From a bacterium (GTDB taxonomy: Bacteria > 4484-113 > JAGGVC01): a DNA stretch of 37,461 bases. Shown here piece after piece: positions 15,328 to 37,461 of this stretch. The notes below the pieces were generated by a model that saw only the letters and a list, made by a program, of their open reading frames with translations, was not told where the DNA came from and ran no database searches. The stretch lies in assembly GCA_039961635.1 (NCBI GenBank), contig JABRWB010000003.1, positions 1 through 37,461 of the forward strand, written 5' to 3'. The position numbers were made by a program, and so were the translations under genes. How positions within the stretch are numbered: position 1 is the stretch's first letter; each line of letters opens with the position of its first letter.

Positions 15328-15744
15328 CTAAAACGTCAGCTTGACGATGTGGATGTGCGGCACTTTCCAGTCTATGTGCACTTCGCCGAACGTGCGCTTG
15401 AGAAGCGTGACCGCGTCCGGATCGTTCAACATCCCGATGTAAAACTCGACCGGCTGCTTGGTTTCCTTGTGAAAACGCGACGAGAACTCGATAAGCTTGC
15501 CTTTCGTTTCCTGCGTCGCAATCCCGTCCGACGTGACCGCGATCCCCAGCACGGTGTTGCCCGCCTTGTCCTTGGCCAGCAGATCAGGGACGAAGTTGCC
15601 CTTCGCCGGCGGCGGAGGAAGGCGCACCGGGTTCGGATTCACCAGGTGCGTCAACGTGTAACCCTTCGCCTGAAGGTAGCCGCCGAGCGCCCACGCGAGC
15701 TTGAATTTGAATGGCACGTTGAAGCCGTTCATATTTACCGACAC
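15328..15744 (-). CDS. Unrecognised 138-aa protein, possibly a nuclease-like fold
   Basis: I do not recognise the family. The middle reads VPDLLAKDKAGNTVLGIAVTSD followed by a Lys/Glu helix (ETKGKLIEFSSRFH), an order of strands like PD-(D/E)XK enzymes (PDxxA, turn, core strand, helix). However, the E-x-K part is replaced by AVT, so activity is doubtful. The N-terminus looks like a short helix (PFKFKLAWALGGYLQAKGY) before a Pro-rich linker. The start is GTG 15744, 6 nt after a TAAAAT box, with no ribosome site. It converges with the polyferredoxin gene. Confidence 0.55.
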   Translation of the reverse strand: MSVNMNGFNVPFKFKLAWALGGYLQAKGYTLTHLVNPNPVRLPPPPAKGNFVPDLLAKDKAGNTVLGIAVTSDGIATQETKGKLIEFSSRFHKETKQPVEFYIGMLNDPDAVTLLKRTFGEVHIDWKVPHIHIVKLTF

Positions 15745-36497: not shown

Positions 36498-36527
36498 GTA
36501 CTTGAGGACCCAGGGGAGGTCGTGATC

Positions 36528-37151
36528 ATGATGAAAACGAAGCTTCAAACCGCCGCCATCCTTGCGGCGATTCTGGCCCTTTCCTTCCACGTCGCGCCGC
36601 CCGCCTTCGGAGCCGACAACCTCGACCCGACCGTCGGCGAAACGGCATGGGGCAACTTCGTCGCGGACTCGATGCGGGAACACTACAAGTGCGACGTCGC
36701 GTTCATCGACGCGGGGACGCTATCCACGCTGACGACGAAGGAAGCGATCAGCGAGTCGATCACGCGCCTCGAAATCGCGGAGGTCGAGGTGGTGACTGCC
36801 AAGCTCACCGGCCGCGATCTTGCGCTCGTCCTCAACAACTCGCTCAAGTTCTTCCCGCGCAAGAGCAACGGCTTCCTGCAGGTGAGCGGGATGGTGATCA
36901 CTGTGGACCCCAAACTCGCGGCAAACAAGGTGGTCGCGGCAAGCGTCGGCGGCGCGGCGCTTGACCCGGCGAAGACCTACACCGTGGCGATGACCAAGTT
37001 CCTGGCCAACGGCGGCGCGGGCTTCAACGTGCTGGACGACATCCCTGTCGTGGACGGCAGCGTCCGGTTCGTCGGCGAGCTTATCGCGGACTATTACATC
37101 GCCCACCCGGAAATGCCCAAGGTCGGCGGAAGGTACGTCGTGAGGGGGTAG
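36528..37151 (+). CDS. Exported stand-alone 5'-nucleotidase C-terminal domain protein
   Basis: 207 aa. I chose ATG 36528, 7 nt after GGAGGT; a GTG at 36522 is too close to the site. A signal peptide (about 1-29, ending PPAFGA) precedes a single 5'-nucleotidase C-terminal domain: ETAWGNFVADSMREHYKCDVAFIDAG, a TGRDLALVLNN segment, GFLQVSGMVITVD, the YTVAMTKFLANGGAGFNVL stretch. The metallophosphatase domain that normally precedes it is absent, and no ORF upstream could supply it. The loop usually reading NAGGIR here reads DAGTLS. It may bind a nucleotide or be a remnant of a split enzyme. Confidence 0.82.
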   Translation: MMKTKLQTAAILAAILALSFHVAPPAFGADNLDPTVGETAWGNFVADSMREHYKCDVAFIDAGTLSTLTTKEAISESITRLEIAEVEVVTAKLTGRDLALVLNNSLKFFPRKSNGFLQVSGMVITVDPKLAANKVVAASVGGAALDPAKTYTVAMTKFLANGGAGFNVLDDIPVVDGSVRFVGELIADYYIAHPEMPKVGGRYVVRG

Positions 37152-37283
37152 GGATTGGAGAACACCGCCAAAAGCGGCAACCAGCTGACCAATACGTTCG
37201 AGTACGACTACGAGAACAGGCTTCTTGAGCACAATATCGCATCGGTGGGAGTGACCGTCGAGCATGCATACGACGGCCTTGAT

Positions 37284-37334
37284 AGGAGGCCCGCCGCCTC
37301 TGCGGGATATTGCGGGCGAGGCGCCCGCCCTCCT
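37284..37334. repeat. Palindromic element A (paired hairpins, 51 bp)
   Basis: Arms AGGAGG (37284-37289) and CCTCCT (37329-37334) enclose two 17-nt hairpins (37290-37306, stem CCCGC/GCGGG; 37312-37328, stem GCGGGC/GCCCGC) and the linker ATATT. It is 17 codons long and adds RPAASAGYCGRGARP-like residues to the YD-repeat frame. Confidence 0.75.
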
Positions 37335-37403
37335 TTCAAGACCACGAGGGCCGTTTCAGGCGGCGCGACGACGGATTACGAGCATGTCAGGAACGGCTTG
37401 TTA

Positions 37404-37455
37404 GGTAGCCGGGGCTTCCAGCCCCGGATATCGCAGGCTGAAAGCCTGCGCTACC
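37404..37455. repeat. Palindromic element B (paired hairpins, 52 bp)
   Basis: Arms GGTAGC (37404-37409) and GCTACC (37450-37455) enclose two 17-nt hairpins (37410-37426, stem CGGGGCT/AGCCCCG; 37433-37449, stem GCAGGCT/AGCCTGC) and the linker GATATC. It has the same plan as element A but different stem sequences. Confidence 0.8.
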
Positions 37456-37461
37456 TTACGG

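Follow-up and report, generated by a model that had tools for sequence, protein, structure and literature searches.

Location and Host Reading Frame

The window analyzed here (37,461 nt) is the whole of contig C3 of a 2.78-Mb bacterial genome assembled in 100 contigs, and carries two paired-hairpin elements, A and B, at its extreme end (Table 1). Both elements lie within the open frame of a YD/RHS-repeat remnant. The preceding gene encodes a 5'-nucleotidase C-terminal domain, and the remnant begins immediately past its stop codon. The Pfam RHS_repeat match to the remnant is weak (E 0.24), and the related ORFs on contigs C33 and C100, as well as those of G004, another genome from this class, exceed the cut-off, which bears out the YD-repeat location proposed in an earlier note on this DNA.

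The window remnant aligns with its paralogue on C33 from approximately position 37170 into element A, and the insertion site of A is identical in the two contigs, which indicates a single event that was subsequently copied by duplication. Where the uninterrupted homologue of the same class (G004, locus L060) reads YDGFNRLIKTDATVGVNTTNYEH, with no insert A, the window has YDGLDRR-(insert A)-TTRAVSGGATTDYEH. The search for the YD frame in 78 genomes (ten members of the class, together with more distant ones) recovered one relative outside the window's own genome, in which the site is uninterrupted. Stretches bearing YD repeats and REPs are found at or near contig ends (position 37461 of the window, the start of C33, the end of C21, and the start of C10), which suggests that the assembly was broken by the repeat-rich YD gene family.

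Table 1. Coordinates of the two elements and of the neighboring reading frames in the window.
Feature	Position	Strand	Description or basis
Upstream gene with 5'-nucleotidase C-terminal domain	36522..37151	+	Not part of an element
YD/RHS-repeat remnant, open frame through A and B	37155..37460	+	Frame truncated at 37461, the end of the contig
Element A, GGAG-headed head-to-head REP dimer, 51 nt	37284..37334		Sequence, DNA fold, covariance-model copies
A outer arms	37284-37289 / 37329-37334		AGGAGG / CCTCCT
A first REP hairpin	37290..37306	+	CCCGC(7)GCGGG; decayed, 5-bp stem, 7-nt loop
A second REP hairpin	37312..37328	-	GCGGGCG(AGG)CGCCCGC; sound 7-bp arm
Element B, GTAG-headed head-to-head REP dimer	37403..37456		Sequence, DNA fold, covariance-model copies, other phyla
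B outer arms			(A)GGTAGC / GCTACC(T), i.e. AGGTAG / CTACCT
B first REP hairpin	37409..37427	+	CCGGGGCT-TCC-AGCCCCGG
B second REP hairpin	37432..37450	-	CGCAGGCT-GAA-AGCCTGCG

Structure and Folding of the Elements

The hairpins of element A are joined by the linker ATATT, and the less decayed relatives of the first hairpin have a 7-bp stem and a TCC loop. On the minus strand, the sequence of the second hairpin and its head is GGAGGGCGGGCGCCTCGCCCGC, and near-copies of this hairpin lie at C5, C76, C93, and C8. The core of element B spans 37404-37455 (52 nt), with pairing that reaches 37403-37456, and its two hairpins (19 nt each) have 8-bp stems and 3-nt TCC/TTC loops, with ATAT as the linker. 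The earlier note had assigned a single plan to the two elements, approximately 70 bp apart; the plan holds and the spacing measures 68-69 bp, whereas the 17-nt hairpins and the GATATC linker attributed to B do not.

When folded as DNA, A forms a three-way junction at -18.5 kcal/mol (z -2.9, with two of 200 shuffles as good) and B a three-way junction at -22.1 kcal/mol (z -6.6, with none of 200 as good), in agreement with the REP/BIME layout originally proposed. For the A-type copy on C100, a single long hairpin is a better fold than a junction, and the optimum fold of two B copies (C33 and C21) is a pair of hairpins without the outer arms. A strict scan of the window for enclosed hairpin pairs returned B and one unrelated, weaker match (15595-15655), and missed A because one of its stems has only 5 bp; the same scan returned one match in Markov control sequence totalling 180 kb. 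The paired hairpins of A and B are real, and the original observation is confirmed, with the further copies in the genome representing the stronger argument against chance.

Copies in the Genome

The genome-wide counts are based on covariance-model, pattern, and BLAST-type searches, with separate covariance models for A and for B. The B model recovered four full dimers (C33:112, C21:56391, C3:37405, and C21:56476, all with E < 1e-14) and two partial copies, both on C100, while the A model recovered three full dimers (C10:647, C3:37283, and C100:5207) and a truncated copy (C33:546). The R1 matches with E above approximately 1e-4, which include single GGAGCCGAGGCTTCAGCCTCGG REPs and chance matches, were excluded from the dimer counts. 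Pattern searches added single A-type REPs at C5, C76, C93, and C8, with five A-type singles in all beyond the dimers, and also a third family, made up of single REPs with GGAG heads. The elements were to be considered chance inverted repeats if the genome held no further copies, or if these did not keep their arm pairing, and copies with the pairing preserved were found. The proposal of a single family that keeps its structure rather than its sequence has to be abandoned, by contrast, as A and B belong to separate REP families built on one plan, given that their heads and cores differ (GTAG and GGCTTCCAGCC in the B type, GGAG and CGTCCCG/CGCCTCG in the A type) and that neither covariance model recovers the other type in the window's genome. 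No target-site duplication, of the kind that the earlier note had suggested looking for, is evident by eye at A, and B extends to the contig end.

All the full dimers are found on contigs with YD/RHS-like ORFs or neighbors, with the assignment of C21 being derived from sequence reading only (YAYDPTGANRE...HYEYDANSNVSKIT). This confinement may reflect tolerance of insertions, import together with the genes, or a preference for them.

Filled Sites, Empty Sites, and In-Frame Insertion

The related ORFs on C10 and C100 provide a further comparison of filled and empty sites, as C10 carries three inserts that are all absent from C100: an A dimer, a single hairpin, and one more. The first two of these keep the frame; the third, from a reading of the sequence, brings a frameshift and a stop codon. 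Placement in frame is frequent, then, but not universal. The elements have between four and six stop-free frames, which means that an insert of suitable length leaves the frame open.

Insertions of this type are also found in genes unrelated to the YD repeats. One A-type single REP, of the GGAG type, lies in frame in the 5'-3' exonuclease domain of polA (L206:691-1785), and another lies in frame in an SPP1-type phage portal gene. In the leucyl-tRNA synthetase of an Opitutae MAG (L066:1168-3993), a B-plan dimer is inserted in frame immediately ahead of the FTTRPDTLFG segment, at a place where the Thermus enzyme is shorter. That REPs and their dimers can lie inside genes, those for DNA polymerase I and for repair among them, was already reported by Di Nocera et al. 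2013 (PMC3733652).

Spread across Phyla and Covariation of the Stems

A degenerate pattern of the B core recovered 96 DNA stretches, from 80 of which dimers were taken. These B-plan dimers are found in at least 28 assemblies of many phyla, including the Hydrogenedentota, Planctomycetota, Verrucomicrobia, Armatimonadetes, Chloroflexi (Chloroploca), and Schekmanbacteria, several proteobacterial groups, and a MAG labelled cyanobacterial, with at least 30 of the dimers among the stretches listed coming from one Hydrogenedentota MAG. The 5' head is GTAG or GTGG in 82 of the 93 external B-plan dimers listed, even though the head was absent from the search pattern. Among the stem pairs outside the pattern, 186 of 224 are Watson-Crick, against 79.6 expected, in a count of one dimer per assembly (28 assemblies) that controls only partly for shared descent, and the external stems present two to four pair types per position. 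Many of these external copies have no long open frame through them, and no external dimer locus is YD-rich by a crude motif count, which indicates that the YD link is local to the window's genome.

In the one other genome examined from this family (G001, L189-L197), nine hybrid dimers, GTAG headed and in one case GTGG headed, join one B-like arm with the GGCTTCCAGCC core to one A-like arm with the CGTCCCG core, so the A and B types are at least compatible. The G004 genome contains dimers of the form GGTGGCACCGGCGTCTCGCCGGTG...CACGGGCGGGACGCCCGTGCCACC (L198 and L199), with long paired outer arms, one frame of which reads GGTGVPPV.

Possible Association with RAYT Genes

The window's genome contains six Y1_Tnp (RAYT-like) matches, five of them above the Pfam cut-off. 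Hairpins of other REP families flank five of the six, and neither A nor B was found beside any of these matches. The REP family around the Y1_Tnp gene of C91, GGGAGTGCACCGGCTTGCCGGTGC (L016, C91:1-1992), also occurs within the C100 ORF (L023:7478-7510) and, on C2 (L210 and L211), immediately following single GGAGCCGAGGCTTCAGCCTCGG REPs. Genes of the Y1_Tnp family are present in all 12 of the B-dimer genomes tested, and in the gammaproteobacterium G079, the only such gene found (L170:261-998, minus strand) sits between B-plan dimers, an arrangement seen in G079 alone among the best Y1_Tnp loci examined in the 12 genomes. The earlier suggestion of a REP-associated transposase elsewhere stands with regard to the REP/RAYT link and to the presence of Y1_Tnp genes in this genome; among the loci examined, flanking by dimers of the B plan was seen at the G079 gene.

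The correspondence of REP heads with RAYTs, and the flanking of RAYT genes by their cognate REPs, were described by Nunvar et al. 2010 (PMC2817692), while TnpA-REP cleaves single strands under the guidance of the head (PMC8266576). The arrangement in G079 agrees with both this RAYT biology (PMC2817692, PMC3733652) and TnpA-REP cleavage (PMC8266576), and the putative link of the window's elements to a RAYT comes from this other genome. A and B may have been moved by a RAYT that is foreign, that has been lost, or that is missing from the assembly, or the copies may have arrived with the YD-repeat genes.

Interpretation and Rival Explanations

Elements A and B are, with high probability, two head-to-head REP dimers (REPIN/BIME units), presumably moved by a RAYT. 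In each unit, a short head (GTAG in B, GGAG in A) precedes a GC-rich hairpin whose loop has 3 nt, and the two units face each other, with the pairing of the heads producing a three-way junction in single-stranded DNA. The recognition of head and hairpin on single-stranded DNA has been demonstrated experimentally for the TnpA-REP of E. coli, S. maltophilia, and Marinomonas. A RAYT (an HUH/tyrosine transposase of the Y1_Tnp family) would recognize the same features here and insert copies without target duplication, and the copies that fall in dispensable genes or permissive loops would persist. It was probably a RAYT that moved these very copies.

The units are hairpin-forming palindromes within the 20-40 nt of REPs and conserved as structure, and two of them, inverted head-to-head, make up the unit, as in REPINs and BIMEs. 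Both heads of B in the window are GTAG/CTAC, as in the GTAG superfamily. Counting against the REP reading, three of the four B dimers of this genome have a GTAC head on one side, and the copy number is low, at four full B and three full A dimers, in comparison with a REP family that often exceeds 100 copies per host genome. The head of A is GGAG in every copy, which not only departs from the GTAG or GT(A/G)G head of the superfamily, but also matches neither of the variants in the literature, GT(A/G)G and GYRG, another point against the reading, and A is therefore classified only as REP-like, with the plan in common.

The dimers may instead be passengers in YD/RHS genes acquired horizontally from a REP-rich donor, and spread by gene duplication and recombination. 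This is possible, if rather unlikely, and would fit the location of every full dimer on YD-related contigs, the A site and flanks that C3 and C33 have in common, the failure to find a cognate RAYT in the window's genome, and the abundance of B-plan dimers in other phyla, such as the Hydrogenedentota MAG with at least 30. The paralogues of C10 and C100 nevertheless differ by A, which implies insertion (or loss) after their divergence, and single A-type REPs occupy ordinary loci, such as polA. There is little likelihood that the lineage's YD/RHS genes attract REP dimers by preference or accumulate them by selection, with in-frame dimers diversifying the repeat proteins rather than simply being tolerated.

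Similarly improbable are protein-tagging in-frame palindromes of the RPE type, retained for their tolerance of translation and spread by a non-RAYT mechanism, as the head tetranucleotide, the head-to-head layout, and the RAYT flanking in G079 are all REP traits, many external copies lack a long open frame, and the frame is not always kept (as in the C10 insert with the frameshift and stop), even though the inserts do lie in frame, stop-free, and approximately 17 codons long, within real proteins. Stable hairpins and compensatory changes in the stems would also be expected of RNA-level elements, such as a terminator, an attenuator, or a structured RNA selected in the transcript. This origin is very unlikely, however, as there is no U-tract after either A or B, an Rfam search of the region returned no match, the elements are found in unrelated genes, and the GTAG head is conserved as sequence, beyond its role as a pairing arm. 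Chance inverted repeats in GC-rich coding DNA can be given almost no credence, despite the GC-rich sequence and the modest significance of A alone (z -2.9): copies at several unlinked places already contradict this origin, in addition to the single match in the 180-kb control and the z of -6.6 in B.

Known Systems and Implications

The find is mostly ordinary in kind, since such elements are already known, intragenic copies included, although their address is unusual and their spread across phyla wide. The GTAG-tagged head-to-head REP dimers of Di Nocera et al. 2013 (PMC3733652) have the same GTAG head, with a stem of 6-13 bp and a loop of 2-3 nt, their opposite pairs fold into larger structures, and they include intragenic copies, as in Opitutus terrae; the elements of the window differ from them in their low copy number, the GGAG head of A, and their YD-remnant host gene. 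In the REPIN/BIME and RAYT systems (Bertels and Rainey 2011, PMC3116915; PMC2817692), an inverted REP pair is also the unit, and RAYTs are flanked by cognate REPs, as is the one found in G079 (B-plan) and as are five of the six matches of the window's genome (other REPs), but no cognate RAYT was found here for A or B, and the copies are intragenic instead of intergenic. Rickettsia palindromic elements (RPEs), likened here by description, are also palindromic inserts read in frame inside proteins, whereas the REP head, the dimer plan, and the RAYT link point to REPs in the present case; Di Nocera et al. include some RPEs among the REPs (PMC3733652).

A poorly sampled bacterial lineage is thus added to those with intragenic REP dimers, and filled and empty sites are now available for the GGAG-headed type. 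A single dimer plan of GTAG heads, 8-bp stems, and TCC loops recurs across many phyla while the stem sequences change freely, which would make it testable in distant hosts whether RAYTs recognize the head and loop rather than the stem sequence. The inserts also affect annotation, creating spurious ORFs and odd protein segments, such as GFQPA, AGWKPAL, and RRPAVPAG.
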